From Chloroflexota bacterium (GTDB lineage: Bacteria; Chloroflexota; Anaerolineae; 4572-78; J111), in NCBI GenBank assembly GCA_016860845.1, contig BOKF01000013.1, positions 62,001-126,000 on the forward strand: a stretch of 64,000 nt of DNA, in the 5' to 3' direction. The translations under genes were made by a program, and so were the position numbers. The notes beneath the pieces were generated by a model that saw nothing but the letters and a program-made list of their open reading frames with translations, did not search any database and was not told where the DNA came from. Positions 26,813-64,000 of this stretch are shown here, piece by piece (within the stretch, counting starts at the first letter, position 1; every line of letters begins with the position of its first letter).

Positions 26813-26975
26813 TGCTCCGGCTCCTGTCCTGCTTTTGGACCCTTAAAAGATGGCCCATTATAACACTGTGTGCTAAAAAATTCACAATATCCCTTACAAC
26901 TGGCAACATTCGCCAGGTTGAACTACAATGCAGGCAGCCTGGCGAAATCTTTTACACGCTGACGGAAGAGGATAT

Positions 26976-34004: not shown

Positions 34005-35339
34005 ATGGGCTACGAGTGGTTAGCGTTGGCCATGTTCGCCGGTTTTGTCCTGATCCTGATGAGCGGTTATCCGGTTGCTTTCTCCTTTGCCGGCACCGCC
34101 ATTGTCTTTGGTTTGATCGGTTTAGCGCTTGGCGTGTTTGACCTGAGGCGGCTGCTGTTGCTATCCAATATCTGGTTCGGCACCATGTCTAACTTTACCC
34201 TGCTGGCCATTCCTTACTTCATTTTTCTAGGCTCCATCTTGGAGAAGTCGGGCATAGCCGAAGATCTGCTTGAAACGGTGGGCATCTTGCTGGGGCCGCT
34301 GCGGGGGGGACTGGCGTTAACTGTCGTCGTGGTGGGCACACTCCTGGCGGCCACCACCGGGGTGGTGGCTGCGACCATCATCGTCATGGGGATGTTAACC
34401 TTGCCGGTCATGCTCCGTTACGGCTACGATAAACAACTGGCCTCCGGGGTGATTGTAGCTTCCGGCACCATGGCCCAGATGATCCCGCCGAGTTTGGTCC
34501 TGGTTCTGTTAAGCGATCAAATTGGGGTTTCGGTCGGCGATCTCTTCCTGGGCGCGGTTATCCCCGGCCTGATGCTGGCGGGTGGTTATGCGTTGTATGT
34601 GCTGGTGATCGCCTATTTCAGACCCCATACGGCCCCAGCCCTCCCCCCCGAAGCCCGGACCTTGCGCGGTCTGCCCCTGTTTTTGAAGACCCTTCACGCT
34701 GTTGTGCCGCCCATTCTCCTTATTCTGGCTGTGCTGGGCAGCATTTTCTTTGGCGTTGCCACGCCCACCGAAGCGGGTACGGTAGGGGCCGTGGGCGCGT
34801 GTCTGTTAGCCGCCGTAAACCGGCGTTTAAGCTGGTCGCTCATTAAAGAGGCCGCCCATGCAACGGCGCGGGTGACAGCCCTGGTGGTCATGATTTTGTT
34901 CTGCGCTTCCTTATTTAGCCTGGTTTTTGACGTACTCGGCGGTAAGCGCTTCATTACCGATCTGTTGGTCAATATGCCCGGTGGGTTTGTCACCTTTATG
35001 ATCGTCAGCAATATTGTCGTCTTTTTGCTGGGCATTCCGCTGGAGTTTACTGAAATTTGTTTTATTGTGATGCCCCTGTTTGTACCGGCGGCATTACAGT
35101 TGAATGTTGATATGGTTTGGTTTGCCATTGTAATGGCCATCAACCTGCAAACCGCTTTTATCTCCCCACCCGTTGGCTTCTCGCTGTTTTACTTGCAAAG
35201 CGCGGCCCCCAAAGAAGTTAGCACAGCGGATATTCACAAAAGCGCTCTCCCCTTTGTCGTCATACAAGTTATTGTTTTGCTCATTGTCATAATGTATCCC
35301 CAGACGGTGCGCTGGTTGGTTGATCTATCGTTTAAGTAA
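34005..35339 (+). CDS. TRAP transporter large permease (DctM family)
   Basis: A 444-residue multi-spanning protein with the DctM pattern: [57 protein letters not shown] and [19 protein letters not shown]. It resembles the branch annotated for mannitol or chloroaromatic acids, but the substrate depends on the missing binding protein. Its last 106 bases lie antisense to the end of the serine recombinase frame, so the mobile element joins exactly at the 3' end of this gene. Confidence 0.88.
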
Positions 35340-37003
35340 AACAAAAACCCCGGCTTCATAGTGGGAGACAATTCCATTTTAGCTTCATAATCGTGCAAAA
35401 TGCAGGTTACATAAGCTATAGCCTTCCCATCTTCCCTTACTAGCCTTACTTGTACGTCCAGTAGGTCAACAATGGCCCGCCGTAGATTAAAGTCACGGCG
35501 GGCTTCCTCTATACCGGCGCTTACCTTTGCCGCAAAATTCCTGAGACGGTCTTTATCTTCGGGCGACAACATAACCTGATTGAGTTGCCCCTTGATTTTG
35601 GCCTGCTGCACTTCTATCTTGGCTATAGTTTCCTCTACCCGTTCAATATCGGTCAGAACTGCGGCATAAGCCTTACCACCCTTTTTAAGGGCTTTCAATA
35701 CGTCTACGAGTTCGGTTAGTTCCTGGTTAAGTTCGGCTATCTTTGAATTGGCGGCCTCTAACTGGCTTTGAAGCATTGCCCCATTCTTGTCCTGTTTCGC
35801 CTCGACATTGGCTATTTCTTCCTCTAGTCGGTTTTGGTCCGTCAAAATCTCCTCTAACCATTGCCAAATCTTGGTATCTGCCATATCGGTCTTAAAAGAT
35901 TTTTGAGAGCAAGTCTTGAAGCAGTCTTTGTTAGTTTTTGTCCCGCAAGTGTAATAATGGCCTTTTCCCATCGTCCCCATCTTATAACCACATTCGCCAC
36001 AAGTACAACGCTTCCGTAACAATATCTCACTCGTGCCAGGTTGCCCCTGGCGATTTTTGTTTTCGGCCAGCTTTTCTTGTGCAAAGTCAAAGACATCTTG
36101 CGGAACGATAGCCGGGACTTTTACCTCAATCCAGTTAGAAGCAAGATGCTTTGTTTCCCTGTAACCCTTCCCCCCATCACTTTTTTGATATTCCAATTTC
36201 TTATCCTTGCCGTAATGCCATAGCCCCGTATATGTCTGGTTGGCTAAAATTCTGGCAACAACCGACCTTGCCCATTTGCCGTACTCGCTTCGCTTGACTA
36301 CTCCGTTAAATTTTCGCAGGTCAGAAGGGGACGGTATCCCTGCTTTCATCAATTTATCTCGTATCGCCCCTATGGAGTGTCCATTCAAGTATTGCTCGAA
36401 GATGAAGCGGACAATTTCAGCCTCTACTGGCTCAATCTCAAAACAAGTCCGGTCATTATTAAACCGATAGCCAAAAGGTGGTTGATTACCAGTATTTACG
36501 CTGCCAGCTTTTACCTTGTTCCGCTTGCCTCGCGTCATTCGCTCCCGTATTTTTTCACGTTCATACTCAGCAATGGTCCCTCTAATATGCTTCTGTAATC
36601 TCCCTTCTGGGGTATCGTCGTACTCAGCCAAAACATACTCAACCCGGACGCCACACTTCTTTAACTCCTCCTCTACTATCAACTGCTTTGCCAGGTTACG
36701 GGATAGCCGGTCAAGTTCCCGGACAATTAATACGTCAAACTGACCGGCATAAGCCATTTCACGAACTCGATTCAACTGTGGTAAGTCTATCTCGGCCCCG
36801 CTCGCGCCCCGGTCATCCTCTGACAATTCGGCAATGATGGTATAGCCCTTCTCTTTAGCGTACTCCCGGCCCATGTCCAACTGGCCTTGCAGATTGCGCC
36901 CTTCCTTGCCGCGGTCATCACCGGAAACACGAGCGTAAAGCACGGCTCGGTCCAGCACGGTGAACTTGTCGAGAATTGATTTAGATTCTACTTTGTGTGT
37001 CAT
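35234..37003 (-). CDS. Large serine recombinase (element integrase)
   Basis: A 589-residue serine integrase. The catalytic domain has Ser27 in [24 protein letters not shown] and the conserved [15 protein letters not shown] helix. A Recombinase domain ([32 protein letters not shown]), a zinc ribbon ([11 protein letters not shown], then YYTCG) and a coiled coil follow. The frame runs on past the natural domain end for about 35 codons antisense to dctM. Its stop codon is therefore supplied by host DNA. In the excised circle the C-terminus would be different. Confidence 0.88.
35336..35352. other. Probable left junction of the integrated element
   Basis: Host dctM ends at 35339 and recombinase-specific sequence begins at once. 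The exact crossover cannot be fixed, because serine integrases use a core of only about 2 bp and leave no long direct repeat. The partner junction was not located. Confidence 0.35.
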
Positions 37004-44862: not shown

Positions 44863-44883
44863 CGTCTTTGCCTCCGTTCATCA

Positions 44884-44927
44884 AAATAAAAAGTGGTGAG
44901 TGTCTTTCTCATTACACTCACCACTTT
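44884..44927 (-). terminator. Strong intrinsic terminator
   Basis: A perfect 14-bp stem (AAAGTGGTGAGTGT and complement, 10-base loop) is followed on the minus strand by TTTTTATTTTG. It ends the transcript of the 229-residue gene upstream and insulates the replication operon. Confidence 0.85.
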
Positions 44928-44948
44928 AACAGGAGAAATATCCGGGAT

Positions 44949-45638
44949 TCAATATCCCGATGTCCTGAGTTTTATCCCGAATTTCCGCAATTGTTTATCG
45001 GTTGGTACAACCTCTTCACCGTATTGCTTTCGTAACAGACTCACACGATTCATGACCGTTTTTGCCGTAATTGTTTTGTCAACTTTTGATGCTATTTCCG
45101 CGTAAGTATGCCCAGTCCACCAAAGCTCTACTGCTGACCTATCCCATCTATAATCTGATATTTTATTCCAAGGCTTCGTGCCACTTTCCCCTATTAATTC
45201 GGTGGTTTCTTTTTGTATGTCAACCTGGGTTTTGTCCTCAACTATCCTAACTTCGCGGATGATAAGCTCTGTCAAAGCCTTGACAAAATCATCCCCCATA
45301 AGTTGAGTATCTTCGTGAGTTAATGAGTTCCAACCGTCCACCAACTCAACTCGTACTCGGTCTTTCGAGACTTCATAAGTATACATGGTGAGAGTATTTC
45401 TCACCGAAGTCTCGGGTGAAAAAATTAAAAATGTTGAATGAGAAGATGATGACTGCTCAGCGAGTAGACCAATAGTGATTTTCTCTATCATCGGTAAAGC
45501 AGTCCAACTTGCTTGATCCTGATTCTTGTAGATCATCTCATGCCAAGTATGGGATAATAGGTCATTAACTCGACGCATTATGGCGTTGAAGTGTTCGAGA
45601 TTTATTTCGATAAGCAAGGATGGGTGCCGTTTTGTCAT
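44949..45638 (-). CDS. Hypothetical protein with a C-terminal helix-turn-helix
   Basis: A 229-residue protein. The last ~75 residues carry a helix-turn-helix (AVELWWTGHTYAEIASKVDK, TAKTVMNRVSLLRKQYG) of the kind used by element regulators. The N-terminal part is of mixed alpha/beta character (EINLEHFNAIMRRVNDLLSH) and not recognised. It has its own terminator. Confidence 0.55.
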   Translation of the reverse strand: MTKRHPSLLIEINLEHFNAIMRRVNDLLSHTWHEMIYKNQDQASWTALPMIEKITIGLLAEQSSSSHSTFLIFSPETSVRNTLTMYTYEVSKDRVRVELVDGWNSLTHEDTQLMGDDFVKALTELIIREVRIVEDKTQVDIQKETTELIGESGTKPWNKISDYRWDRSAVELWWTGHTYAEIASKVDKTITAKTVMNRVSLLRKQYGEEVVPTDKQLRKFGIKLRTSGY

Positions 45639-45693
45639 TGAATAATATTCCCTTCTTTCCCTGAGGACGAAAGTTTGATAATCTTACGGACCT

Positions 45694-46626
45694 CTAGATA
45701 CTCGTAGTACGGCGTATATAGGGGACGTGCAGCAGTTGGGCAGCTTTCCGCTTGGTTTCCTCACCTCGCCGATCATAACGGGCTGTGGTGGAAACATCAG
45801 CATGGCCGGCCATTCGTTGAACAGTAGCAATGTCGGCTCCGGCGTCTAACAGATCGCCAACAAAAGTGCGACGAAAGTCGTGGGGGGAGACATCATCAAC
45901 CCCCGCCTGCTGCGCTCGATTCTGCAAGATGGTATAGACTGCCTGGGTGGTCAGCCGATAAGGTTTTACGTGTCCCCCCTTTCGAATCTGAAGAAACAAT
46001 GGACCGGGAAAGGCACCTCGGATTGCCAGCCAATCCTCCAGAGCAGCTTTGGCTCCACTGGTGACATGGGCCGTGCGCTGTTTGTTGCCTTTGGCTCGAA
46101 GGATTTTGAGTTCACTTGTTGCTGGATCGAAGTCCGTCATATCCAGGCTCACTAATTCTGCCCGGCGCAGACCGCATCCATATAGAAGTCCAATCATTGC
46201 CGCATCTCTAGCACCGGCCGGCGTCTGGTCGTCAATGCAAGCGTTGAGAAGAGCGGATAACTCGCCAGGGCTAATGGATCGGCCTGCGGGTAGAGTTTCA
46301 AACTTCACCCCCTTCACATTGGCAATACCTGTAGCATGGACAGGATCAATTGCACCATTGTCGGCAGCCTCCCTGACCAGCTTTCGAATCGCGCTCAAAA
46401 TCTGATTTATTGCTGCCGGCCCTTTGCCGGTTTGCTCTAGGTGGTTCTTATAGCTATTCACAATCGCTTTGGTAAGTGGCGGCCGGCCCTGACCAGTGTG
46501 CCAGTCGAGAAAATTGTTCAAGGCTCGTTGGTAAGCGCGGCGACTATGTTGGCTTGACATGGAATTAAGGACAGCCTGGATCGCTTCTTGACGGTTGTCA
46601 GTTGGGGTAATAATGGCAGTTGTCAT
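45694..46626 (-). CDS. Tyrosine recombinase (XerC/D-like)
   Basis: A 310-residue recombinase from MTTAIITPTD. An N-terminal SAM-like core-binding domain (SRRAYQRALNNFLDWH) precedes the catalytic domain. The catalytic set is Arg in YGCGLRRAELVSLD, Lys in LRAKGNKQRTAHV, HDFRR, a second His in MAGHADVSTTARYD and Tyr in ARYDRR. It could resolve element dimers or be the integrase of a second element nested with the serine-recombinase one. Confidence 0.88.
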   Translation of the reverse strand: MTTAIITPTDNRQEAIQAVLNSMSSQHSRRAYQRALNNFLDWHTGQGRPPLTKAIVNSYKNHLEQTGKGPAAINQILSAIRKLVREAADNGAIDPVHATGIANVKGVKFETLPAGRSISPGELSALLNACIDDQTPAGARDAAMIGLLYGCGLRRAELVSLDMTDFDPATSELKILRAKGNKQRTAHVTSGAKAALEDWLAIRGAFPGPLFLQIRKGGHVKPYRLTTQAVYTILQNRAQQAGVDDVSPHDFRRTFVGDLLDAGADIATVQRMAGHADVSTTARYDRRGEETKRKAAQLLHVPYIRRTTSI

Positions 46627-46813
46627 CAATCGCACTCCGAAAAAATAACTTGCTATAAGTGGCATTATCATACGTTATAAATCAAAAAGGTAGGCAAAGT
46701 CAAGCCTCTTTTTTGCTGATTTTTAGGTTCAATCAGGATACAATTCCCAGGATGCCTCCCTGTTAATCACACTCGGAGGGCCTTTTTGGAGGTTGTATGG
46801 CTCACTCGATGAG

Positions 46814-51364: not shown

Positions 51365-52885
51365 TCACGACCTGTAAAAAATGGAGGACACAGCAACTCG
51401 AAAACCGGAGAGCCCGTTACAACGGTTGTAGTGGTCCTTGCGGCGGCAGGCACAGCGGGCGGATCTCTGACGGTAGTCCCACGACCCACCCCGCAGCACG
51501 CGATGACCCTTAGCACCGGGACTTTCCCGCCCATCTTTTGGATCATAAGGATAGGAGTAAGGGAGACTATTCGTCCATTCCCAAACGTTGCCGGCCATAT
51601 CTAGCACCCCATACGGGCTGACACTAGCCGAGTAGATCTCTACTGGCGTAGTTCCACCCAGCTTGCTTTCTTGAGTATTACACCGCTTGGCGTCCCACTT
51701 GTTCCCCCACGGATAAATCCGACCATCCGTCCCCCGCGCCGCTTTCTCCCACTCCGCCTCGCTCGGCAACCGATACGCTTTACCCGTCACCTGGGCCAGC
51801 CAACTACAGTAGGCTACCGCGTCATCCCATGAAACATGAACCACTGGGTGGTTTTCTTTACCCTCCGGAATCTTACCTTTTTCCCAGTGGTACGGCGCTT
51901 TGCGCTTCGTCGCCTGCACAAAGGCCGAGTATTGGACATTGGTCACCGGTGTTTTGGCAATGTAGTAGTCGGGGAGACAAAGCTTATGTTGAGGCTGTTC
52001 TTCGCTATCTGCCTGTTTATCTTTTTCGGGATTGCTGCCCATTTGGAACTCACCAGCCGGGATTAGGATTAGCTCCGGCTCGAAAGTTTCTTTCTTTTTC
52101 GTTTGTCTTGGTGACTCAAGTTTGGCAGGGGTGGCCGGTTCCTCTGGTAGTTTGGGCTTAGGCTGTTTAGCAGGGGCAATCTCAGCCGGTGGCTGTCGCT
52201 TCCCAATCTCATAATCCAGCGCCCGTGTAAGGTCCTTAAAGCCATCCGGTTCGAACAGATTAACCCAATGCAATTCCGAGAGCCGTTCAGGTACTTGACA
52301 CTCTTCTAAACGTACCGGGATGAGATAAATTGTTCCCACGGGCGTCTGCTCTAGGATATCCAGCGCCCACTTGATCTCTTGCTGTACCACGCCCCGTTTG
52401 GTGATTGAGTTATTCGAGAGGCAAACCAGGACGAGGTTATAGGGATCGCGAATAATCTTTTCAATTTCTCGTCGCCAGGTCTGTCCTGGCAGCAAATCAA
52501 ACTTATCCAGCCAGGGGTGATAACCAGCGTCTTTGAGGTGATAATAAAGTTCCTTCACCCGAGGTTTATCTTCACTGGCGTGGCAGAGGAAAATCCGGGG
52601 TTGAGATCGAAAGCTAACCAGTTTGGGGTCAGCGGCAACGGTCGGAGTAACCGGTACTGATACTGCCGGCGAGACAGCTAGCTTTGGTTGAGGTGCCTCA
52701 TTCTGTCCTTGGTTTAACTCTGCCAATTCTGCCTGCAATTTTTCAATGCTTGCCTCTATATCTTCGATCTCGAGGAGAATGTGAGGTTCAGTATCAATGC
52801 CTTTCCGAGCTTGCTGTTCCTTGAGTTTTTGCAAGCGCCTTTGCCACAATATTAGTTCGTTTTGAAGGTCATCTTTGCGTGACAC
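51365..52885 (-). CDS. TIR-FGE conflict protein with adaptor-like N-terminus
   Basis: A 506-residue protein. Residues 1-60 are a helical adaptor-like domain (LQKLKEQQARKGIDTEPHIL). Residues ~96-229 are a TIR domain (PRIFLCHASEDKPRVKELYY, GYHPWLDKFDLLPG), with Glu170 in VVQQEIKWALD at the place of the NADase catalytic Glu. After a Pro-rich linker, residues ~270-503 are a formylglycine-generating-enzyme/C-lectin-type domain (LILIPAGEFQMGS, YRLPSEAEWEKAARG, DMAGNVWEW, RVLRGGSW). A TIR effector on an FGE sensor suggests NAD-depleting immunity. It is the last gene of the defence operon. Confidence 0.8.
   Translation of the reverse strand: MSRKDDLQNELILWQRRLQKLKEQQARKGIDTEPHILLEIEDIEASIEKLQAELAELNQGQNEAPQPKLAVSPAVSVPVTPTVAADPKLVSFRSQPRIFLCHASEDKPRVKELYYHLKDAGYHPWLDKFDLLPGQTWRREIEKIIRDPYNLVLVCLSNNSITKRGVVQQEIKWALDILEQTPVGTIYLIPVRLEECQVPERLSELHWVNLFEPDGFKDLTRALDYEIGKRQPPAEIAPAKQPKPKLPEEPATPAKLESPRQTKKKETFEPELILIPAGEFQMGSNPEKDKQADSEEQPQHKLCLPDYYIAKTPVTNVQYSAFVQATKRKAPYHWEKGKIPEGKENHPVVHVSWDDAVAYCSWLAQVTGKAYRLPSEAEWEKAARGTDGRIYPWGNKWDAKRCNTQESKLGGTTPVEIYSASVSPYGVLDMAGNVWEWTNSLPYSYPYDPKDGRESPGAKGHRVLRGGSWDYRQRSARCACRRKDHYNRCNGLSGFRVAVSSIFYRS
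51395..51505 (-). other. DGR-like variable region in the FGE domain
   Basis: Residues 461-497, from RVLRGGSW to GFRV, have the layout of diversity-generating retroelement targets. A fixed frame (GGSW, AR.A.R, GFRV) is interrupted by D, Y, R, S, C, H, N and L at sites where relatives have Asn. Many of these codons are one or two A-site changes from AAC. The paired NACHT-FGE protein lacks this pattern. No reverse transcriptase or template repeat is in the window. Confidence 0.5.
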
Positions 52886-52940
52886 GAGAACCTTACCTTA
52901 CTCTTTCTCTGTCCCGGATTTCAGTATCCCAGGAGTCCAA

Positions 52941-55532
52941 CTACAAAATGGGAGAGATTACAATCCGAAACCCGACGTCGTAGCCCCCTTGCCTCGGAAG
53001 GCTCCTATTACGAAGCGTACAACGGATGTAATCCTCATCGCTGAGGAAAGAGCCACCCCGCAGCACCCGGACTGAATTTCCCTCAATATAACTGGCCGAC
53101 CATTCTTCCTCCCCAACATCGTAGGGATAAGTTTTGCCATATTTAGTGACACACCACTCCCAAACATTGCCGGCACAGTCAAATGTTCCATAAGGACTAA
53201 CGCCTGCCAGATAAATCCCTACCGGTGTCGTCCTCTGTACTTGCTGCTTACCCTCACCCGCATTTAACCGGTCAGCTTCAAACTCATTGCCCCAAGGATA
53301 CTTTCGTCCGCCAACACCTCGAGCGGCTTTTTCCCACTCCGCTTCGCTTGGCAGGCGATAGGGTTGCCCCGTTTCTACCCTCAGCCAATGACAATAAGCG
53401 ACAGCCTCATACCAACCGACCCCAATGACAGGTTGATTGGGCTGATTATAACGCGCATCAGTCCATTTACCAGGTTCAAACCACTCCCCACGTTCTTTTT
53501 CCTGCCACCCTGCCTTCGTCCACCACTGTTTATTTTGATAACCCTTGGCCTCAGTAAATTGCCTGTATTCAGCATTGGTCACCAGATACTTACCAATTTG
53601 ATAGGAAGGCAAAAAGAGTTTGTGGCGCGGTTTTTCATCATCATACCTACTGTTGTCATCTCCCATCCAAAACTCCCCGGCCGGAATCGTGATCATTTCT
53701 CCCAAACGGGGATCGCCCAGATAGCCCAATACCTCCCCGGCCGCTATTCGCACCCGCAAAGCCACTTCGGGTTGGGCAATTGTGGTCAATAGGGACTCGA
53801 TCACCGCCTGCCGGATGGCTTTATTTACCCTGGCCTGCCCTTCATACAGGCAACGCCCGGCCAGAACCGGGTTAATCTGTAGCAGGGTCCGCACTAACTT
53901 GTCATCGTTTTCAGAGACCAGCCCTGCCGCCAGGATAGTCGTCTCTTCCCAACCGGTTGGCGGCGGCGGCGGCAAGGGATCGTAGTTATCTTCAGGCCGG
54001 ACCCGTAACGGCATCTCCTCTTCCAGCCAAGGCCAGCGCCAGTAGTCGCTCAGACTGGCCGGATCGCGTTTGAGCATCTGCCAGGCGGCAAAGTATTCTT
54101 GTAAAAGTTGGTGATAAAACCGGACTGAGGAACGATCCACCGGCATCTCGATGATGTGGGCGCTGGCCGCCAGGGTTAGCACTTGGTCAGGCGGCGAGGG
54201 ACGCGACGGCCACTTAGGATCAGGCTGCACTTCGTCAGGCAGCACCGCCTTGATCTTGCCCATTTCCACCAGCGTGCCGGAGCCGGCCCGAGCTTGCATC
54301 TCAAAGGACATGATAGACAGAGCTTCTCGTTGCACCTCGGCAGCGAGCCAGTCAGCAGGCGAACATTTAGCCTTGGCCCAACTCATCAGAATCTGAGTAA
54401 AACGCTGCATCAACTCGGCCCGATTCCGGCCCAACTGCCCATCCTCGGCAAAAATATCCACCATCATCGTCAGAAGGTAGGGGTTGCGGGCCATTTCGAG
54501 CAAGCGGTGTTTGTCATCCCCACTTCCGACTAACTCCTGCCATAAGGCTTGCCACTTCTCTGGTAATTCATTCCGCAAAAACGCCTGAATCTGCTCATCG
54601 TTGAGTGGCTGCACTTCCACTCGCTGCAAACCAGAGAGTTCCTCGCCGTAGTCCAGCACCCGGCAGGTGACCAGAAAGCGATTGTCTTTAGCCGCCCACT
54701 GGTCAATGAAGCGGCGTAAACTCTGCGCCCGTTCGTGATAACCTTCGTGGGGCATCTCGTTCAGGGCGTCGAAGAGAAAGAAGAGTTGACCAGCTTCCAA
54801 GTAGCCTTCGAGGTTAGCGACCAGTTCCGGCGCTCCCCAATGGCCGGCCTGGGTGGAACCACCCCAACCCTGGACAATGAACTCTTCCAGGGTCATCCCC
54901 GGCCTGAACTCACTCAGACGCAGAGGAATAGGCAAGTGCTTCGGCTCATCGGCGAATTCATAGGCCAAGTTTTCCAGGGCCGTCGTTTTGCCGCAGCCGG
55001 GGTCGCCGAGGAGGATGAGGCAGGGATACTTGTCTACTCCTTCGCCCAGGGTGTTGAGTTTGACCCGTTTGAGTTCCTGCCCCGCCTGAATCCACTCGTG
55101 ATATTCGGCCATTGCGCGCTGTTTGCGGCGCAGGACTGAACGCGGCGCGGTTTCTTCCTCAGGGAAGGAAACAACGTCAGTGGTTTCGCCGGCCAGAGGG
55201 ATGTAGTAGGGAGCATCGGCGGCATAACGGGCTTTGAGGCGTTCACGGTAAGCTTTCTCGGCAGCGGCAAGGGTTTGGGAGTCAACGGGCGAAGGAGTAA
55301 ATACATCTCCAAAGACATTCAGCGAGACCAGGAGAGGCTTGAGTGCCTCGCGCCACTCGAACTGATTAAGTTCACCCGCCATCGCTTGCTTGGTCAGGAC
55401 GATGGCCTGCTCGTGGTCGGCGATCTGGTTAAGCAACTCAACGGGCGTATTGCCGCCATACTTGGCCTCGCGCTCCCGAAGAGTGTTCAGGTTTTGGGTG
55501 AGTTTGATTAGAACCACTTTGAAGTCAGCCAT
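52941..55532 (-). CDS. NACHT-type STAND ATPase with C-terminal FGE domain
   Basis: An 863-residue protein. Residues 1-60 form an adaptor-like helical domain (LREREAKYGGNTPVELLNQI) similar in layout to that of the TIR-FGE protein. Residues ~165-450 are a NACHT ATPase: Walker A LLGDPGCGKTTAL at 176-183, Walker B FFLFDALNEMP near 252-262 and FLVTCRVLDYGEELSGL. A helical region with YHQLLQEYFAAWQML follows. Residues ~640-863 are an FGE domain (EMITIPAGEFWMGD, YRLPSEAEWEKAARG, DCAGNVWEWC). It starts 1 base after the upstream stop. The likely role is a nucleotide-gated sensor that activates a partner through the shared N-terminal domain. Confidence 0.85.
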   Translation of the reverse strand: MADFKVVLIKLTQNLNTLREREAKYGGNTPVELLNQIADHEQAIVLTKQAMAGELNQFEWREALKPLLVSLNVFGDVFTPSPVDSQTLAAAEKAYRERLKARYAADAPYYIPLAGETTDVVSFPEEETAPRSVLRRKQRAMAEYHEWIQAGQELKRVKLNTLGEGVDKYPCLILLGDPGCGKTTALENLAYEFADEPKHLPIPLRLSEFRPGMTLEEFIVQGWGGSTQAGHWGAPELVANLEGYLEAGQLFFLFDALNEMPHEGYHERAQSLRRFIDQWAAKDNRFLVTCRVLDYGEELSGLQRVEVQPLNDEQIQAFLRNELPEKWQALWQELVGSGDDKHRLLEMARNPYLLTMMVDIFAEDGQLGRNRAELMQRFTQILMSWAKAKCSPADWLAAEVQREALSIMSFEMQARAGSGTLVEMGKIKAVLPDEVQPDPKWPSRPSPPDQVLTLAASAHIIEMPVDRSSVRFYHQLLQEYFAAWQMLKRDPASLSDYWRWPWLEEEMPLRVRPEDNYDPLPPPPPTGWEETTILAAGLVSENDDKLVRTLLQINPVLAGRCLYEGQARVNKAIRQAVIESLLTTIAQPEVALRVRIAAGEVLGYLGDPRLGEMITIPAGEFWMGDDNSRYDDEKPRHKLFLPSYQIGKYLVTNAEYRQFTEAKGYQNKQWWTKAGWQEKERGEWFEPGKWTDARYNQPNQPVIGVGWYEAVAYCHWLRVETGQPYRLPSEAEWEKAARGVGGRKYPWGNEFEADRLNAGEGKQQVQRTTPVGIYLAGVSPYGTFDCAGNVWEWCVTKYGKTYPYDVGEEEWSASYIEGNSVRVLRGGSFLSDEDYIRCTLRNRSLPRQGGYDVGFRIVISPIL

Positions 55533-55533
55533 G

Positions 55534-55935
55534 TCATAGTTCTCGCTTCAACTGTTCATAAGCCTCTGGTGGCGACGGCTGATGAGGAATGCGGACCCGG
55601 TAGCTGCTCATTCCACCGTCCAGCCGCAGAAACACAAACACGACCTCCCTGGCCGGGTCGTACTCCTTGACCATCCGTTTTACATCGGGGTCGCCGGTGG
55701 CCCGAACACCCTGGTAAGGCACGTAAGCCGCCTGGCTCTCACCAAACAGGTACGACTCGCCCCGTGGAGGGTCTTTCGATTCGGTCACGTCAACGACCAG
55801 GCAGCCCCGGCCCTGCTTTTGGTATTGCTGCCAGGCGAAAGCCGCAGCGATGGGCCAATTGGTGCGGATGAATTCGGCGTGGCTCTCGCGGCTCTCCCGG
55901 CCTGTAGGCAAGTCTTCGGGTTTAAACTTTGTCAT
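55534..55935 (-). CDS. Hypothetical protein of the defence operon (133 aa)
   Basis: A 133-residue soluble alpha/beta protein (TNWPIAAAFAWQQYQKQGRG, YDPAREVVFVFLRLDGGMSS). No catalytic motif or family is recognised. It is translated with the NACHT-FGE gene (1-base gap) and preceded by a small membrane protein, so it is likely a dedicated component of the system. Confidence 0.6.
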   Translation of the reverse strand: MTKFKPEDLPTGRESRESHAEFIRTNWPIAAAFAWQQYQKQGRGCLVVDVTESKDPPRGESYLFGESQAAYVPYQGVRATGDPDVKRMVKEYDPAREVVFVFLRLDGGMSSYRVRIPHQPSPPEAYEQLKREL

Positions 55936-55956
55936 TTGGACTATCGCTATCTCTGT

Positions 55957-56157
55957 TCACGCCTCCTGCAAAATTCCAATTGTCGGTGTAGGTAAAGGAC
56001 GACGCCTATATTGCAGGAGGGGCCAAATTAAGGTGGACAGAATCGCCAGGATCAGCAGCAGCGTAATCAGCACTGTTACCAAGCCGAGCTTGCGGCTTCG
56101 TGGCTCATCATTATCCTCTTCTATCGGTATCTGTTCCCGCCACATGGCCAGCCTCAA
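55957..56157 (-). CDS. Small single-pass membrane protein (66 aa)
   Basis: A 66-residue protein with a charged N-terminus, one membrane helix (GLVTVLITLLLILAILSTLI) and a basic Pro-rich tail. It lies 17 bases after the NERD-helicase stop. It could anchor the complex at the membrane or act as a pore-type effector; this is inference. Confidence 0.5.
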   Translation of the reverse strand: MRLAMWREQIPIEEDNDEPRSRKLGLVTVLITLLLILAILSTLIWPLLQYRRRPLPTPTIGILQEA

Positions 56158-56174
56158 CTGCCTTGCTTCGGCTC

Positions 56175-58301
56175 TTATTGCGGTTGCATTTCTTCCAACT
56201 TCTTTTGGAGACGGTCAATAATCCACTCAGGAGCAACACCACTGTAGGTAATGTAAAGCAAGCGTCTGGCTCTGGTCATCCCCACATAAAGTAGTTTCCG
56301 CTCCTGATCCAAAAGCTGCTGAAACTCCTGGCTTTCAATATCTATCGGTTCATTGATCTTGAATTCCTCAAGCCCACAGATAAAAACAACTTCAAATTCC
56401 AAACCTTTGGCGCTATGAAACGTACAGATTTTGACCGCTGGCGCGGTAAAATCCAAATCACCGCTCACTACCGTACAAGCCACACCTCGACTACGCAGCT
56501 CCTGGGCCATCCGTTCGTTGCCGCTGCGATGGCGCTGAAGTATGACCATATCTTTCGGCAAATACCCCTGCTGCAATAAAGACAGAATCTGGGCGGCGAT
56601 GCCGCTGTACTCTTTGTCCGGCGACTCAAAGGATAACAACACCGGCAGCGGTCCATGCCGAAATTCGTTGTAGCCTCCATCCGGCTCCACCAGAGTATCC
56701 CCGGCACTTTGTAGTTCTTCAATTAGGGTCTGGCTATTACGAATCGCTTCTAAAGCGACTTCAACGATTTCGCGGGTACTCCGATAAGAGCGTCTGAGGA
56801 TGTAGCTGTTTTGACTGGTAATGCCCAAACCAAGCTCCTTCCAGGTAAAATCACGGGCATAGATTTTTTGAGCTCCATCACCTGCCATAAACACCATACT
56901 TGTTTCAGGCTTAATCATTCTGAAAGCAACCCGAAACCAGGCCGGGGCAAAATCCTGGGCTTCGTCTATCAAAATGGCATGGTACTGGGCCAATTTAATG
57001 AGGCCATCGTCCATAGCCCGTAACACCATCACCGGCAGGTCGGCCCAATCGCAGCTTTTATTTTGAGCCAGTCGGGCCTGGTACCGGCAAAATAGATCAT
57101 AAATCAACTGCCGTTTTGGGATTTCACTTCGACCTAACCCACGCTCTCGATTGGTTCGTTTGACCTTTTGCGGGTCAAGGTAATCCTGCCAACTCCGATA
57201 ATCCACCCGCTCTTTGATCCAATTGAACTCTTCGGCGAGAAATTCAGGATCAAACTCTGTAACTTTTGCTTCTTGCAACAGGTTGGCAATTAACCCTTTT
57301 TGGCTGCTGCTATTTTGGGGATTTTTGAAAAGGCCCTGCGCGAGCAGCAACTCGCGGCACCATTTGTGAAAATTTACAATTTCAACCCGATTAGAGTCAC
57401 CCTCAATTTGGGAGAACACCTGCCGCAAATATTCCCGCAACGATTTGTTGTAAGTCAGAACCAGCACCCGCCAATTTGGATTCTGCTCGCTCAGAAACTT
57501 GGCCCGAAAGAGCAAAATCAGAGTTTTGCCGCTGCCGACCACGCCCCTAATCAACTTGGCTTGCTGCTTTCGATACAGCAGTTGGGCGTGTTCAGGCAGA
57601 TAGGTATCAAGCTTGGCTAACCCCAACTGATCCGGGTCCAGGGTAAAGAGTTGTCCCTGAGTGCCGGGAACTCGGGTCTCAGGATACAGCATCCATTTGA
57701 GGGTATCTATTTGTTTCTTCGATAGCGTCGTAGAAAATGTCGGCGCAGTTCTGAGGCGGGTAAGTAACGCTTCTCCCAAATCCTCCTTCAGCAGAACACG
57801 CTTCTCGTTGATCATGTTGGGTAAATGTAGCTCTGAGGTGCGCCATTCGTGGCGGCTGATATTGGGAAAAGCAACCAGGTAGGCGATCGAAACCGCCAGC
57901 TTGCCCTCGTGTTTACCACTGGTCCTTAACAACAGGCTGTATTTCTCCTGATCAGTGGTGCGATAACGTTCTATTTCCTCCTTGAGCACTCGAAAATGGC
58001 CCTCTACTTGTTTTTCAGGATTGGTTCGCTTGGCGAGCTGGCTGCCGGTAAAAATCTCAAAGGTGTCCCGATTGGCTCCACGAATTTTGTCTATACTCCA
58101 GTCCTTGACCTCCACAATAATAAGCCCAATATCACGCCCCAGCACCAAAAAATCAGGTCGAGCGCTCCGTTTGTCCCCAAACAGAGTTGGCTCATGCCAG
58201 CCAAAATAATCATCCGGCAGATAACGTTTGAGTGCATTAAAGACAACCCGTTCGCCAGGTTGGCAGCCATCTGGGGCGGTGGGGTAGTTCATCTTAGCCA
58301 T
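56175..58301 (-). CDS. NERD-domain nuclease fused to a UvrD/Rep-type helicase
   Basis: A 708-residue protein. The N-terminal NERD nuclease domain has GERVVFNALKRYLPDDYFGW and RPDFLVLGRDIGLIIVEVKD with the D...ExK catalytic pattern. A superfamily 1 helicase follows: Walker A LIRGVVGSGKTLILLFRA, motif II AILIDEAQDFAPAW, motif III region, and motif VI LYVGMTRARRLLYIT. NERD-helicases are common in defence islands, where they process invading DNA. It sits between the DUF499 ATPase and the small membrane protein in the operon. Confidence 0.88.
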   Translation of the reverse strand: MAKMNYPTAPDGCQPGERVVFNALKRYLPDDYFGWHEPTLFGDKRSARPDFLVLGRDIGLIIVEVKDWSIDKIRGANRDTFEIFTGSQLAKRTNPEKQVEGHFRVLKEEIERYRTTDQEKYSLLLRTSGKHEGKLAVSIAYLVAFPNISRHEWRTSELHLPNMINEKRVLLKEDLGEALLTRLRTAPTFSTTLSKKQIDTLKWMLYPETRVPGTQGQLFTLDPDQLGLAKLDTYLPEHAQLLYRKQQAKLIRGVVGSGKTLILLFRAKFLSEQNPNWRVLVLTYNKSLREYLRQVFSQIEGDSNRVEIVNFHKWCRELLLAQGLFKNPQNSSSQKGLIANLLQEAKVTEFDPEFLAEEFNWIKERVDYRSWQDYLDPQKVKRTNRERGLGRSEIPKRQLIYDLFCRYQARLAQNKSCDWADLPVMVLRAMDDGLIKLAQYHAILIDEAQDFAPAWFRVAFRMIKPETSMVFMAGDGAQKIYARDFTWKELGLGITSQNSYILRRSYRSTREIVEVALEAIRNSQTLIEELQSAGDTLVEPDGGYNEFRHGPLPVLLSFESPDKEYSGIAAQILSLLQQGYLPKDMVILQRHRSGNERMAQELRSRGVACTVVSGDLDFTAPAVKICTFHSAKGLEFEVVFICGLEEFKINEPIDIESQEFQQLLDQERKLLYVGMTRARRLLYITYSGVAPEWIIDRLQKKLEEMQPQ

Positions 58302-58336
58302 GGTGATGCTGATCTCCTTACAAGCCTATTTGTTTC

Positions 58337-61300
58337 TCACCCCTCTTCAAACCCGTAATGCTCGAACTTCAAGGTGCGACTGTTCTCATTGATGGTGCGA
58401 ACCGTGCTCTCGTCAAAGCCTTCCGGTCGCCTGGCGCTAATCTCGACGGTGATTTCAACCTCACAGCCGATTTGGCTGGTCAATCGCTCGATGATTTCTT
58501 CGACAATTAAACCGACATCTTTATTGACTCGCCGGGCGTCAATGCCGACCCGGCCGTAATAGCGTGATAGCACCTTTTTGACCGGCTCAGTCTTATCCAG
58601 GGGTTTCTTACCTCCAACCACATAATCCTCGCCCCCATTGCGGATGACAGTTTCTGGCGGCTTTACCGCTGGGGGTTCAGCCACGTGGTCGGGGTGAATT
58701 AAAAGACTTTTGTCGTCAAAGTAGACCTGCCCCAATTGACGTAGAACCAGCCCGGTATGGTAGCCTTGCTCATTTTTGCCGGTGGCGTAGGCAAAGGGAG
58801 CGTCCAGGCGACTCACGCCATCTTTGACGGCTTTGACCAATACCTCCTGGTCGAATAGGCGGGGCAGGTAGCAGTATTGGGCCAGATATTCCCAAAGCTG
58901 CTTCAGCCGCACTTCCCAGCCGCGCTCGGCGCTCCAGATGTAGCGGTCTAACTCCATCCGTAATATGTCGGGTGACCAGTCGTAGATAAGTAAACCATCA
59001 TTACGCAGCTTCCGGGCAGCCCGGTCGTAAAAATTATCGTCACCACTGATTTTGCTGGCCTGAAACTCAATTTTGCCCAAGGGGTCAGGCTGCACCGGAA
59101 CCAATAGCCAGTTGTAGGCTGAGCGCAGCCGCAAGTCAACCGTCTCATCCGCTTTTTGCAGGCTGGTGGCGACCTGGCGGCGCTGCTGAGCATCGAGGTT
59201 CAGTTCTTCTCGCTCCTCGTGAATGGAGCGCCAGGCCAGAAAGTCGCGCACGGCCAGACGGAGCGCCTCGGCGTCATTTTCGTCGGCGGCGATGAAGAGC
59301 AGCATGTTTTTATAAAGGCGCTGGCCATTGCCCCGGCTCTCCAGGAAGCGTTGGGCCTCCTTGCCGGCGCTGGACTCGCCGTTGCTGCGCTTGTGGACGG
59401 CGCGGGGATGGAGCACGACCACCCTGGCCCGGGCTTCGTCCAGCACGTCTGAGGTTTCGGGTGGGGCGACGTGGAAGGCGGCGAAATCGCGGTTCTTCGG
59501 CACCTTCCGTAACCGTTCGATGAGCTGGGCGTCAAGCTCGTCCTCGGCAAAGCTCTGAGCGCGATCGCGGGCCAGCTTGTTGACCGTGGGGCGCGAGTCA
59601 TACCAGTAGCGGCTGCCGTCGGTGTAGAGGTAGGTAAGCTGCCCGCTCAACCGGCGCAGGGCGTCGCCGAAGACGGCCGCCGGTTCGCCGGGCTGGGCGC
59701 AGCCAAGCCGAATCCGCACTTCTTCCAATCCCCGCACCCGCTGCTCGGCCACCGAGGGGGCGCTGCCGACAAAGATGGTGCGAGCCACCCGCCGGGCGGC
59801 GCTGTACCGGCCCAGCGCCGGAACCTGGCCGTCAATCGCCAGAGGACGCGACTCGTGGCCGTCTATGTCCGTTTCATACACCGCGGCCCAGGTATCGGGC
59901 AGGTAGCGCAGCAGTTCGTTGCGCACCGGCGTCGTATCGAGGGGCAATGTACCGGGCAGGATCAGCAGCGATTGGTCGCCGCGGGTCCAGAGCTGGTGGA
60001 TGACGGCGGCCATCAGCCGCAGCACACCGCGGGTGCGCTGGAAGCGTTCCAGGGTGGACCAATCCTGGTAGAGCCGATCAAATAGCTCAGGGTGGATGGG
60101 GTAAGCTGACCGCATCCGCTCCAGGTAATCCCGCTCGGCCACCCCAGCCGGGAACTCGCCGGAGGTGTTGCGATACATATCGCCAAAGGCGTTGACCACG
60201 GCATCACGGCTGGCGTAATTAATATCGCTGGCAAAGAGCCGCCGCCGCACGATTTCAAAACTCTCGGTGGCGGTGACCGGCTTCCAGATGGACTCGATCC
60301 GCCCGACAATGTGCGACAGCGTTTCCAGGGCCGCCCGGCCTGCCTGACCGCCGACCTCAATATCCGACTCCGGCAGCGAGATGAGCAGCATTGCCTCCGG
60401 CGAACCTTTGACGGCTTCGGTCAGCGACTGCATAAAGGTCATAATCGCCTCAAACGTGCCCGCCGGCAGCCGGTCCACGCCGTACAGGTTGCGGGCATAG
60501 GCCACCAATTCGTCAATGATGATCAAACACGGTCCAAACTGGAAGAGTAGCTCTTTGAGGGTGTTGGAGCCGGGGCTGACCCCGCTCTGGTCGGCTTGCT
60601 CGACCAGTTTGTAGCCGGGCAGCCCGCCCAGTTGGTAGGCCAGCTCGCCCCACAGAGTCCGGATAGTCACCTCCGAATATTGGCGCGGCCGGGCGGGGTC
60701 GAGGGCGGTGCCGACGAGGACGGCGATGTTGGCTTCGGGCAGGTCGGTGTGGTTGATCTGCGCGGCAATGCGCTCGCCGCCGGGGAAGTCGGCCAGCTTG
60801 ATTTTGCCCCCGGCCAGGTGGTACAAGGCCAGCATGCTGTGGGTTTTGCCACCGCCAAAAGTGGTTTGGAGCTGCACGACCGGGTCGCCGCCCTGGGCAG
60901 CCAGGCGATTGATGCCCGTGACCAACAGGCTCAGCAGCCCTTCGGTTAGATAGGTGCGGCAGAAAAATTCGACGGGGTCCTGGTATTCCACTTCGGCGGT
61001 CCCGGCCACGACCTGAGACAGGTCGGCGGCGAACTCGGCTTGGATATAGCGGCCGCTGGCCACATCGGGATGAGGCTGGACCACGGCCCGCCAGGGCTTG
61101 AGGCCGGCCAGGGTGGTGACTTCGGTCGAGGCCAGCGGCCCGGTATCTTTCTTGGCCTTCTTGGCCTCAGCCTCGAAACGCAGACGCAGCAGCTCCTTAC
61201 CAGTTTCCTCGACAACCGCCGCTTCCTTGGCCGCGCTGACCATTTTCAGCAGGCGGGCGGCGGTGTCGGCGATGCGGTAGGCTTCGTCGTTGCCGAAGGC

Positions 61301-61630
61301 GCTCTGGTGCGCCCAGGCGTTGCGGGCTTCGAGCATCTCGCTGGTGTAGGAGCGGCCGGTATGGCCCAATTTGTCCTGAAAGACGTCATTCCAGCGCCGG
61401 ATCATCAGGTTTAGGCAGCCATGGGTGTCCAGTGCCTTTAAGAGCGCGGCGTCACCGGCGCGAGCTTCAGGCGGCAAGCCCCCATAGCTGCCGGTGGCCA
61501 GAGTGCTGTCAATGATGTCCACATAGCGGTTTTTGTAGACCTGGCGATATTCGCGCAGGATGAAGGGCCCCAGGCCCTCCTTCAAGGCGGCCATAACCCG
61601 TCCGACTCGTTCGGTGTTGCTCAGTGCCAT
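58337..61630 (-). CDS. DUF499 ATPase with an N-terminal Swt1-like HEPN domain
   Basis: A 1,097-residue protein from MALSNTER, preceded by GGAGG. The first ~130 residues resemble Swt1-family HEPN domains (LNLMIRRWNDVFQDKLG), with EARNAWAHQ giving an RX4H ribonuclease motif. The DUF499 ATPase has Walker A QTTFGGGKTHSMLALYH and Walker B CLIIIDELVAYARNLYG. DUF499 proteins are found with DUF1156 methyltransferases and helicases in defence islands. Here the DUF1156 gene is only 14 bases upstream. The protein probably senses or translocates foreign DNA and may cut RNA. Confidence 0.85.
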   Translation of the reverse strand: MALSNTERVGRVMAALKEGLGPFILREYRQVYKNRYVDIIDSTLATGSYGGLPPEARAGDAALLKALDTHGCLNLMIRRWNDVFQDKLGHTGRSYTSEMLEARNAWAHQSAFGNDEAYRIADTAARLLKMVSAAKEAAVVEETGKELLRLRFEAEAKKAKKDTGPLASTEVTTLAGLKPWRAVVQPHPDVASGRYIQAEFAADLSQVVAGTAEVEYQDPVEFFCRTYLTEGLLSLLVTGINRLAAQGGDPVVQLQTTFGGGKTHSMLALYHLAGGKIKLADFPGGERIAAQINHTDLPEANIAVLVGTALDPARPRQYSEVTIRTLWGELAYQLGGLPGYKLVEQADQSGVSPGSNTLKELLFQFGPCLIIIDELVAYARNLYGVDRLPAGTFEAIMTFMQSLTEAVKGSPEAMLLISLPESDIEVGGQAGRAALETLSHIVGRIESIWKPVTATESFEIVRRRLFASDINYASRDAVVNAFGDMYRNTSGEFPAGVAERDYLERMRSAYPIHPELFDRLYQDWSTLERFQRTRGVLRLMAAVIHQLWTRGDQSLLILPGTLPLDTTPVRNELLRYLPDTWAAVYETDIDGHESRPLAIDGQVPALGRYSAARRVARTIFVGSAPSVAEQRVRGLEEVRIRLGCAQPGEPAAVFGDALRRLSGQLTYLYTDGSRYWYDSRPTVNKLARDRAQSFAEDELDAQLIERLRKVPKNRDFAAFHVAPPETSDVLDEARARVVVLHPRAVHKRSNGESSAGKEAQRFLESRGNGQRLYKNMLLFIAADENDAEALRLAVRDFLAWRSIHEEREELNLDAQQRRQVATSLQKADETVDLRLRSAYNWLLVPVQPDPLGKIEFQASKISGDDNFYDRAARKLRNDGLLIYDWSPDILRMELDRYIWSAERGWEVRLKQLWEYLAQYCYLPRLFDQEVLVKAVKDGVSRLDAPFAYATGKNEQGYHTGLVLRQLGQVYFDDKSLLIHPDHVAEPPAVKPPETVIRNGGEDYVVGGKKPLDKTEPVKKVLSRYYGRVGIDARRVNKDVGLIVEEIIERLTSQIGCEVEITVEISARRPEGFDESTVRTINENSRTLKFEHYGFEEG

Positions 61631-61644
61631 GCGTGCCTCCTGTT

Positions 61645-64000
61645 TTAGCCAAATAGTCGTCCTTGCTGGTACTGCTCGCGGAACTGGACGGCCTGCTCCT
61701 GGCTGGCTCCCCAACTGATGACCAGGGCGTTGTAATCGCGAGCGTGATCGGTCCAGCCTTTGCGCTCGCAGATGCTGTAGAGACGGTAGGCCAACTGGCG
61801 AGCCTCGGCGGCCATGTCCGGCGACAACTTAGCCAGCAGCCGGGCCGCGCCTTCTTCGCCGTAGGTATTGAGCCGCTCGATCAGGTGGTGGGTGGCCTCC
61901 CAGGTGGTCAGGCGGCGATCCGTGGCCGGATCCCAGCCCGGCTCCAGCTCCGACCAGTGATAGAGCCGGACCTTACCCGCACCCGATTCCAGCAGCCCGG
62001 CGTTGGCCAGGCCGTCCACGCTGGTGTTTTTGGCCCGGGCCAGCACATCCGCCTGACCGAAGGGGCCGGCCTTGAAGCCGAACTGCTCGAACCAGGCGAT
62101 GGCAAAGCGGGAGTCCTGGTCCATATCCCCTTCCTGCTCGGCCAGGTAAGTATCTAATTCGTAGTTGATAAGCTGCAAGGCGGTGCGCACGCTCAAACGC
62201 TGGCCGTCCGGCTCCAGCACTTTGCTGTACCTGCTGTAGACGGCCATCCCCGGCCCGATGCTGGCCTGAGCCAGGTCCACCGGGGCAATGTTGCCTGATT
62301 GCAACTTCCGCAGAGCCTCGGGCAGTTCCCGTCTCAAGGTTTTGACAAACTCTTGGCGAGAGGTGATAGGTGCGCTGTTCGGGCGGGGACGGCAGACCAA
62401 GATAATGGAGGATGCCAGGGCACTTATATCCTTTTTAAGATTAGTAACAAGTTCAGTTCTGATAGGCCATGTACCTGTTATCACAAAACCAGTGCGTACA
62501 AGTCCTTCTAACATGGTTTCCCAACCAGTAGAAGCAACATACTCGCCAGGTTGCCCTACATCATCAACTTCTGACTCAGCTTGTTTAAAAGCATAGAATA
62601 CAGTGAGCGGGTAATCAACGTCTGCACAATTACGGATATGGCGGAAAGTTTTTTCTAATCCTTCTTCAAAAAATTGGCGTGCCTTTTCCCTTACTCCGTT
62701 GAAACGGTGAGATACAGCTACTAATTCTTGCGATTTTGGGACTAAGATTGTATTGAATAAATCTGGATATGATCTCCGCAATGAGCGACGAAGCCAAATA
62801 TAGAAAAAATCTGAGAGTTCTGCGTAGCTGATGTTGTCGTAATAAGGCGGATCTGTGCAAATCATTGGAGTCAAATCTAACTTGAAAGATGCTGCATCAC
62901 TGAGAACAGCCTCACCACGCGATGAAGGATTAACGAATAAATTCTCAAGATTGTTAGTAATCCCTGAAATTTGTAGCAAGAAATTTCCGCTTGAATCACT
63001 GAATGGATTACCTTCAGCGAAGTCCCAAGTCATCGGTAATGCCTGTCGTCCAAATGTACTAGTAATGGTCTCATACTTAATACCTGAATGCCACGTACAG
63101 ATTTTTGTTAGGTAGTTTGCCAAGCGATCAAGTGCAAATGCTAAATATGTGATTATTGCATTAGAATATTCAGAGGAACTAATATTACCAGTAGCAGGTA
63201 ATCCAGAATTTTTAGCTGCTTGATACACTTGTCCCCAGACCTCACTTATCAAATCATTAAAAGTAGTTAATGTCACGAGTTGTCGAGAAGTGAAAATTTC
63301 ACTCCAGTACTTAATTCCGTAACCTCGACCACTAACCAAAGTGGGGGTATCTTGATTCATTTCTTCTTCTGGCATCCAATCAGGAGATATGGTTTTGGCG
63401 AACTTTTGCTGCTCATCATTAGGTGGTAGATAAATGCGACCTCTTTCGCCTTCAGCCACAATTGCCATTAGCTGACTATCGTTATGCTTTGCGAGGAACT
63501 GGGCACGAATACTTTCTTCAGAAGCAACCTGCCCACAGGCTAGACAATAAAATTTTGCGCCACGGCCAATTTTTGGCGATTTTGGAGGCGTGCCATTACC
63601 TGAATTTACAACAAAATTGATTTGAGGGGGTTTAACACTGTAATCAACTTCAGGCTTAATCCATGCCTCTTTACCTTTTTTAGTTGCGAGTTGAAAGGAT
63701 CGAGCCAACGGCATTTGTGCTCCGCAGGCAGGATTCGGGCATCTAACCGTTTGCACCCAAAGCCATGCAATTATCGTAGCTTCTCCACCACCATATTCGG
63801 AAGTGAGCTTCACTCTCGGGTACAAATGGCCGATCCGCTCCCAGGCCCGGTCGCGCATCCACTCGCCGTAGTAACGCACGTCGGCGGCCAATCCTGCCGC
63901 CCCTTTCCAGCCGCCTGTGCCGGCGGTACCCTGGCGGTCGCGGGGGTTCACCGGCGGTTGATTGGCAAATTTGGGCGGGATTTCGATCAGGGCTTTGTTG
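61645..64000 (-). CDS. DUF1156-type DNA adenine methyltransferase (5' partial)
   Basis: The frame stays open to the window end; the GTG at 63951 is internal, since NKALIEIPPKFANQPPVNP reads through it. About 785 residues are visible. The catalytic motif IV is TDPPYYDNISYAELSDFF; the SAM-binding FxGxG part lies beyond the window. Other family marks are GLAADVRYYGEWM, a CPNPACGAQMPL zinc site and PKIGRGAKFYCLACG. It modifies adenine in DNA, which could mark self DNA for the rest of the operon. Confidence 0.85.
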   Translation of the reverse strand, partial: NKALIEIPPKFANQPPVNPRDRQGTAGTGGWKGAAGLAADVRYYGEWMRDRAWERIGHLYPRVKLTSEYGGGEATIIAWLWVQTVRCPNPACGAQMPLARSFQLATKKGKEAWIKPEVDYSVKPPQINFVVNSGNGTPPKSPKIGRGAKFYCLACGQVASEESIRAQFLAKHNDSQLMAIVAEGERGRIYLPPNDEQQKFAKTISPDWMPEEEMNQDTPTLVSGRGYGIKYWSEIFTSRQLVTLTTFNDLISEVWGQVYQAAKNSGLPATGNISSSEYSNAIITYLAFALDRLANYLTKICTWHSGIKYETITSTFGRQALPMTWDFAEGNPFSDSSGNFLLQISGITNNLENLFVNPSSRGEAVLSDAASFKLDLTPMICTDPPYYDNISYAELSDFFYIWLRRSLRRSYPDLFNTILVPKSQELVAVSHRFNGVREKARQFFEEGLEKTFRHIRNCADVDYPLTVFYAFKQAESEVDDVGQPGEYVASTGWETMLEGLVRTGFVITGTWPIRTELVTNLKKDISALASSIILVCRPRPNSAPITSRQEFVKTLRRELPEALRKLQSGNIAPVDLAQASIGPGMAVYSRYSKVLEPDGQRLSVRTALQLINYELDTYLAEQEGDMDQDSRFAIAWFEQFGFKAGPFGQADVLARAKNTSVDGLANAGLLESGAGKVRLYHWSELEPGWDPATDRRLTTWEATHHLIERLNTYGEEGAARLLAKLSPDMAAEARQLAYRLYSICERKGWTDHARDYNALVISWGASQEQAVQFREQYQQGRLFG

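Follow-up and report, generated by a model that had tools for sequence, protein, structure and literature searches.

An Hma defence locus with a NACHT-TIR pair among the apparent cargo genes behind hmaC on a Chloroflexota contig

Introduction

Hma is defined in the available text of PMC8565338 as a system of helicase, methylase and ATPase, with the methylase HmaB called a predicted m5C enzyme. The available text of PMC12839542 treats Hma as the Type-1 DUF499-centred BREX-related (BR) system, with an N6-methyltransferase; it reports HEPN-fused DUF499 in 1,370 taxa, describes a C-terminal RRM-fold domain of DUF499, and credits more than half of all BREX and BR systems with auxiliary effectors, and TIR, NACHT, EAD and UvrD are absent as whole words from its main text. 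Here we analyse a stretch of 64,000 nucleotides of a Chloroflexota genome (contig BOKF01000013.1, positions 62,001-126,000), to which, as a whole, we refer as the window, and which ends in a run of seven closely packed genes. We read this run, with a probability of about 0.75, as an Hma (Type-1 BR) system with further defence genes as cargo behind hmaC, the whole being probably carried by a mobile element and probably transcribed as one unit.

Two of the cargo genes recall another published design. According to the available text of PMC8195603, a STAND-FGS protein and its effector bear the same effector-associated domain (EAD), TIR partners included. C-type-lectin and formylglycine-generating enzyme (FGE) domains diversified by retroelements have furthermore been proposed as antigen sensors (PMC10907252, available text). 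In the open-access literature we found no paper that joins Hma with NACHT-FGE and TIR-FGE genes; each half has been published separately.

Results

The original prediction, which was made from the letters alone, described seven same-strand open reading frames (ORFs) filling 51365..64000 at gaps of 14, 35, 17, 21, 1 and 55 bases. All seven are present, on the minus strand, and the gaps were reproduced from the coordinates of ORF ends and starts. In order of transcription the run encodes a methyltransferase, a HEPN-DUF499 ATPase, a NERD-UvrD helicase, a 66-aa and a 133-aa protein (sm66 and sm133), a NACHT-FGE protein and a TIR-FGE protein, and Pfam confirms the predicted protein types HEPN_Swt1 plus DUF499, NERD plus UvrD, NACHT plus FGE, and TIR plus FGE. 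A closely packed run with a core of known defence kind is thus well supported by the spacing and by matches to the HmaB and HmaC models described below. Start codons are ATG at 61630 for HmaC, ATG at 58301 for the NERD protein, TTG at 56157 for sm66, ATG at 55935 for sm133, ATG at 55532 for the NACHT protein and GTG at 52885 for the TIR protein; an alternative ATG 12 bases downstream in the sm66 gene (56145) would yield 62 aa and a gap of 29. A promoter and terminator splitting the cluster, named at the outset as evidence that would speak against a single unit, are not visible: a consensus scan of 50.5-64 kb, covering sigma-70-type promoters only, gave no minus-strand promoter-like site, and the 15 terminator-like sites there compare with a shuffle mean of 15.1, so that the scan says little either way. 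GC content at third codon positions (GC3) is uneven across the run, from 0.51 (HmaB) to 0.76 (HmaC). Judged by its layout, the run is probably read as a single transcript.

The first two genes are, by sequence, HmaB and HmaC of the published Hma system. HmaB (61645..64000, minus strand) is a DNA methyltransferase of which the C-terminal 784 aa are visible, its 5' end lying past the window. The PADLOC HmaB model matches at E 7.8e-267 over model positions 176-965 of 967, which leaves about 175 N-terminal residues outside the window. The visible translation holds a DPPY motif, which we take to fit an amino-methyltransferase. The earlier label of DUF1156 methylase is borne out in part, by the PADLOC match and by a sub-cutoff match to NCBIfam DUF1156_antiphage (72.2 bits, cutoff 1000), but Pfam gives no match at E<=0.01. 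HmaC (58337..61630, minus strand) joins a Swt1-type HEPN domain to a DUF499 AAA+ ATPase (PADLOC HmaC, 1075.5 bits; Pfam HEPN_Swt1 and DUF499), and its HEPN R-x4-H motif and most of the FGGGKTHS P-loop are invariant across 17 aligned sequences. The family is very large, with at least 7,999 relatives at E<=1e-20 in a protein search; matches occur in 101 plasmid records, all below 60% identity and 51 with 80% cover.

Where is the helicase of this Hma system? An HmaC profile confirmed 572 genome loci. We compared the best 80 of these, of which 50, 41 and 39 have 3, 5 and 7 kb of room after HmaC, together with a second set of 36 HmaC loci from a viral collection. HmaA is an SNF2-type protein, and five of seven upstream ORFs scanned with PADLOC are HmaA (L003, L010, L012, L014, L015), the other two (L001, L018) being other proteins. 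Forty-five of the genome loci extend 6.5 kb or more upstream of HmaC, and tblastn places HmaA on that side of HmaC/HmaB in 41 of them; in none of the 80 does it place HmaA downstream of HmaC. In the viral collection it lies upstream in 12 of the 18 loci with that much room and downstream in 3. The HmaA gene of this locus is therefore to be expected past 64000, and the NERD-UvrD protein is a different one. Accordingly, the proposed module of DUF1156 methylase, DUF499 protein and NERD-helicase is not supported, and the NERD-UvrD protein was rejected as a substitute HmaA by the same upstream count, HmaA being unseen here rather than shown absent. None of the PADLOC matches listed for the NERD-UvrD protein (25 of 44) is HmaA. 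On this reading, Hma would be complete at this locus.

The five genes behind hmaC are of another standing. In the 80 HmaC genome loci, the NERD helicase, sm66, sm133, NACHT and TIR regions of the window have no match at E<=1e-3 (tblastn), a result to be read with only 41 of the 80 having 5 kb after HmaC and with the low power of a 66-aa query; generic FGE matches occur in two of these loci (L001 and L072). Matches in the 36 viral-collection loci are limited to one of 67 aa for NERD (E 5e-4) and one of 41 aa for TIR (E 4e-5). The claim that all seven genes form one system, for which a neighbourhood search had been named as the check, does not hold up in this sample, on which we also rejected a conserved composite as the main reading. 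Too little room or no clear HmaC ORF removed 24 of the 80 loci from the downstream count; among the 56 usable ones, HmaC is followed within 150 bp by at least one ORF on the same strand in 29 and by none in 27. Ten ORFs from these runs were compared with Pfam: three match nothing and seven match assorted families, namely ResIII/DEAD, DUF4365, GmrSD_N, SMEK_N, AAA_21/AAA_15, HD_assoc_2 and, weakly, PLDc_2. The genes behind hmaC in the window thus look like cargo, since relatives of Hma carry other genes or none in this place.

The first of them (56175..58301, minus strand) encodes a NERD nuclease-like domain and a UvrD-family helicase (Pfam NERD and UvrD), with C3a187 (NERD+UvrD) as best PADLOC model. 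Relatives occur in 63 of 400 phylum genomes (E<=1e-20; best match 30% identical), and matches in 220 plasmid records are all below 60% identity. In four loci with relatives (L167, L168, L169, L219) the helicase comes directly after a conserved gene, whose four products (581-620 aa) are 48-62% identical to one another; this gene has no match in the window, where the helicase consequently appears without its usual neighbour. The sm66 ORF (55957..56157, minus strand) encodes a small protein with a single hydrophobic stretch, for which family library scans gave no family above curated cutoff. The sm133 gene (55534..55935, minus strand) lies within the defence gene run, and its product belongs to family PF26617. 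A structure model of modest confidence predicts for sm133 the fold of the carboxysome chaperone CcmS. Searched against PDB chains up to E 10, a profile of 26 sm133 sequences gave no match. Relatives of sm133 were found by single sequence in 1 of 400 phylum genomes and by profile in 6 of 23 genomes picked for NACHT relatives, at 7 places, one of them directly behind an FGE gene (L221, 17-bp gap). The viral-collection scans gave no relatives of sm133 or of the NACHT protein.

The last two genes look like a matched pair of the published EAD-STAND-FGE design, as far as their domains tell. The NACHT protein (52941..55532, minus strand) consists of an EAD-like N-terminus, a NACHT STAND ATPase and a C-terminal FGE domain of C-type-lectin fold (Pfam NACHT 1.3e-11, FGE-sulfatase 5.5e-57), and the TIR protein (51365..52885, minus strand) of an EAD-like N-terminus, TIR_2 and a C-terminal FGE domain (Pfam TIR_2, FGE-sulfatase). 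The two FGE domains are 43% identical over 256 columns. For the N-termini we built an EAD model from seven N-terminal domains, taken from the NACHT protein and its relatives, and searched it against 2,039 distinct N-termini from the compared loci and the window. The TIR N-terminus ranks third (12.1 bits, E 0.018; next best 6.6 bits), outscored only by the NACHT protein and by a free-standing L202 protein related to it, and none of 5000 shuffles beat it; a longer stretch joins the N-terminal ends of both proteins at E 0.007 in a whole-protein comparison. The matching FGE and N-terminal domains support the earlier view that the pair looks like an abortive module.

At least 292 NACHT homologues, the window protein included, were found at E<=1e-10. 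Labels counted by hand on the 120 of these that were listed place adenylate-cyclase domains in the N-terminal slot of 66, TIR or SEFIR in that of 6, and a kinase, a trypsin-like and a CHAT domain in one each; in the window protein and some relatives a short helical domain fills the slot. Effectors can thus be placed directly in this position in homologues of the NACHT protein. The free-standing relative in L202 (12812-13135) is a 107-aa protein with a 61% match to residues 1-71 of the window NACHT protein; a NACHT-FGE homologue interrupted by an in-frame stop lies about 2 kb away. NACHT relatives are present in 8 of 400 phylum genomes (E<=1e-20) and in 23 of 396 class genomes (E<=1e-40). In the stretches read of the closest available NACHT loci (L200-L203, matched pieces 45-74% identical), Hma, NERD, sm66, sm133 and the TIR domain have no match; a second FGE gene is present in L201 and does not match TIR. 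In plasmid records the TIR-FGE query has matches in 116, none with 80% cover.

The FGE domains have matches both among formylglycine-generating enzymes and in the Treponema variable protein 2y3c. At the two positions that we take to be those of the catalytic cysteines, placed on an alignment to 6muj, the TIR protein has Q and C, so the cysteine pair is not conserved; in 6muj itself the second position is V. We read 18 NACHT-FGE loci for a diversity-generating retroelement (DGR), namely L160-L166, L200-L208, L172 and L174, the last two of which, at less than 3.5 kb, tell little. Five (L163, L204, L206, L207, L208) contain both a DGR reverse transcriptase and a template repeat; none of the four closest loci (L200-L203) does. 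Variable repeats differ from their templates mostly at adenines, as in L204 (19/31 A versus 1/100 other bases) and L208 (18/28 versus 0/83), and least cleanly in L207 (11/19 versus 3/61); L208 has three variable repeats for one template. Within the window we found no template-like repeat and no convincing reverse transcriptase: the best matches reach E 0.67 with the L204, L206 and L163 queries and E 0.64 with L207, two of these four queries giving no window match up to E 1, and the L208 enzyme gives a 36-residue match at E 0.007 that is antisense to an ABC-transporter gene.

Compared with the five foreign templates, the TIR tail shows an adenine bias at one-sided Fisher p 5.4e-5 (L204; differences at 18/27 A and 21/90 other), 3.5e-4, 1.1e-3, 4.3e-3 and 0.011, and the NACHT tail at p 0.17 (L204; 12/25 A and 33/94 other), 0.029, 0.012, 0.047 and 0.045. 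Part of this bias is built in, because template adenines sit in variable codons. The silent bases of the TIR tail match the first L204 gene at 14/18 versus 28/69 upstream, with a weaker excess for the second L204 gene (12/20 versus 39/79), L208 (9/16 versus 25/59) and L163 (9/15 versus 24/59); the NACHT tail has no extra silent-base match. We regard the DGR signal of the window as a weak trace and as a lead only.

The genes scanned in the left 35 kb of the window are ordinary (transporters, a two-component system, metabolic enzymes). They include, at 26928-29119, two adjacent arginine-deiminase/DDAH-family genes followed by genes for a solute-binding protein and an ABC transporter. A large serine recombinase gene (35234..37003, minus strand; Pfam Resolvase, Recombinase, Zn_ribbon_recom) overlaps the 3' end of dctM (TRAP transporter, 34005-35339). 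Between it and the defence genes, 42008-46671 holds a DnaB-type helicase, a phage replication protein O-like gene and a tyrosine recombinase. Given these recombinase and replication genes, the cluster probably rides on an integrative element, and the serine recombinase at dctM is a possible candidate for its left end.

Discussion

How could an Hma system and its cargo act in one cell? We envision that HmaB marks host DNA and that HmaC, together with the HmaA expected beyond 64000, would scan for unmarked DNA and destroy it, with the HEPN RNase of HmaC as a possible last resort. The cargo may represent a second, separately evolved layer. In this layer the FGE domain of the NACHT protein might sense an invader product, upon which the NACHT ATPase would oligomerise and the N-terminal adaptor domain would recruit the TIR protein through its matching domain; the TIR domain could then stop the cell by consuming NAD+ or by making a nucleotide signal. 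The CcmS-fold protein would most likely be a peptide-binding chaperone for the NACHT/TIR module, and the NERD-UvrD protein an extra nuclease-helicase. For the FGE domain we propose the sensor role in keeping with PMC10907252 rather than with PMC7159879.

Several observations pull the other way. HmaA was not seen within the window, which ends inside hmaB. When the EAD model is enlarged to 10 sequences, the three additions being more divergent, 5 of 5000 shuffles beat the TIR N-terminus; a direct BLASTP of the NACHT against the TIR N-terminus alone gave nothing; and in Pfam the TIR N-terminus comes near EAD11 below cutoff (E 0.0022), the NACHT N-terminus having no match up to E 10. The closest NACHT homologues are largely on metagenome contigs outside the loci compared. 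The five loci with TIR-FGE relatives that we read (L253-L257; the contigs of L254 and L257 are under 6 kb) all lack a neighbouring NACHT gene, so in this sample the NACHT-TIR pair is not conserved as a unit. When the TIR domain is aligned to solved TIR structures, most matches end before the region where we presume the catalytic glutamate to lie, which leaves NADase activity without support from a residue test. Finally, PMC7159879, in its available text, groups FGS domains with effectors and not with sensors.

Two other accounts of the run deserve consideration. The genes might be a plain defence island, in which unrelated systems are stacked on a mobile element and separately transcribed, and in which the NACHT and TIR proteins have no functional link. 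A serine recombinase and replication genes near the cluster, the uneven GC3 and the solitary TIR-FGE relatives would all suit such an island, but gaps of 1-55 bases throughout, together with the likeness of the FGE domains and N-termini, argue for at least a NACHT-TIR link, and we consider this account rather unlikely. Conversely, all seven genes might constitute a single two-stage machine, in which HmaB, HmaC and the NERD-helicase restrict DNA and failed restriction triggers cell death through NACHT and TIR. This would explain seven co-directional genes so closely spaced and with no visible dividing promoter, but the 80 HmaC genome loci, 41 of them with 5 kb after HmaC, lack cargo matches at E<=1e-3, those of the viral collection offer short NERD and TIR matches only, and the helicase proper to Hma is a different protein. 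Such a machine is, to our judgement, quite unlikely, and we prefer an Hma system with cargo.

A more elaborate scenario would unite both layers in one regulon, with Hma handling unmarked DNA and a retroelement-tunable STAND/TIR death module judging the outcome. The FGE tails would be, or would once have been, rewritten by a DGR elsewhere in the genome, and the CcmS-fold chaperone would load or hold the FGE or adaptor tails. We consider this very unlikely. Under the preferred reading of Hma with cargo, the slot behind hmaC appears to accept defence genes of various kinds, so that a search for new ones could usefully start from hmaC. The NACHT-TIR pair is a small, convenient example on which to study how a STAND protein of bacteria might recruit a TIR effector through adaptor domains. 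Should the predicted fold of sm133 be confirmed, a carboxysome-chaperone fold would stand beside STAND/TIR immune genes; we found no earlier report of this, in a search too narrow to mean absence.

How, then, does the locus compare with described systems? With CcmS (available text of PMC11635287; 8zlh, 9iur) sm133 shares the predicted fold, at an identity of only 17-19% and with no match by sequence profile. With the DGR-diversified STAND/FGE proteins of PMC10907252, as far as its available text describes them, the window shares FGE domains with an RGGS...GFR tail, and five relatives carry a DGR; it differs in having neither reverse transcriptase nor template repeat in its 64 kb, and its weak to moderate adenine bias is measured against foreign templates. 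It resembles the EAD-STAND-FGS systems of PMC8195603 (available text) in a STAND ATPase with C-terminal FGE/FGS and in having, within the locus, a TIR-FGE partner whose small N-terminal domain is similar to that of the STAND protein, whereas its NACHT N-terminal domain fits no Pfam EAD, the pair sits behind an Hma operon, and no DGR genes were seen in the window. Of Hma or Type-1 BR it has no visible HmaA, and the five genes right behind hmaC are without matches in the 80 genome loci, but it shares HmaB, HmaC, the fusion of HEPN to DUF499 and the position of hmaB ahead of hmaC. We found this arrangement nowhere else; it was probably put together locally, in a single instance, from two halves that are both of known kinds.

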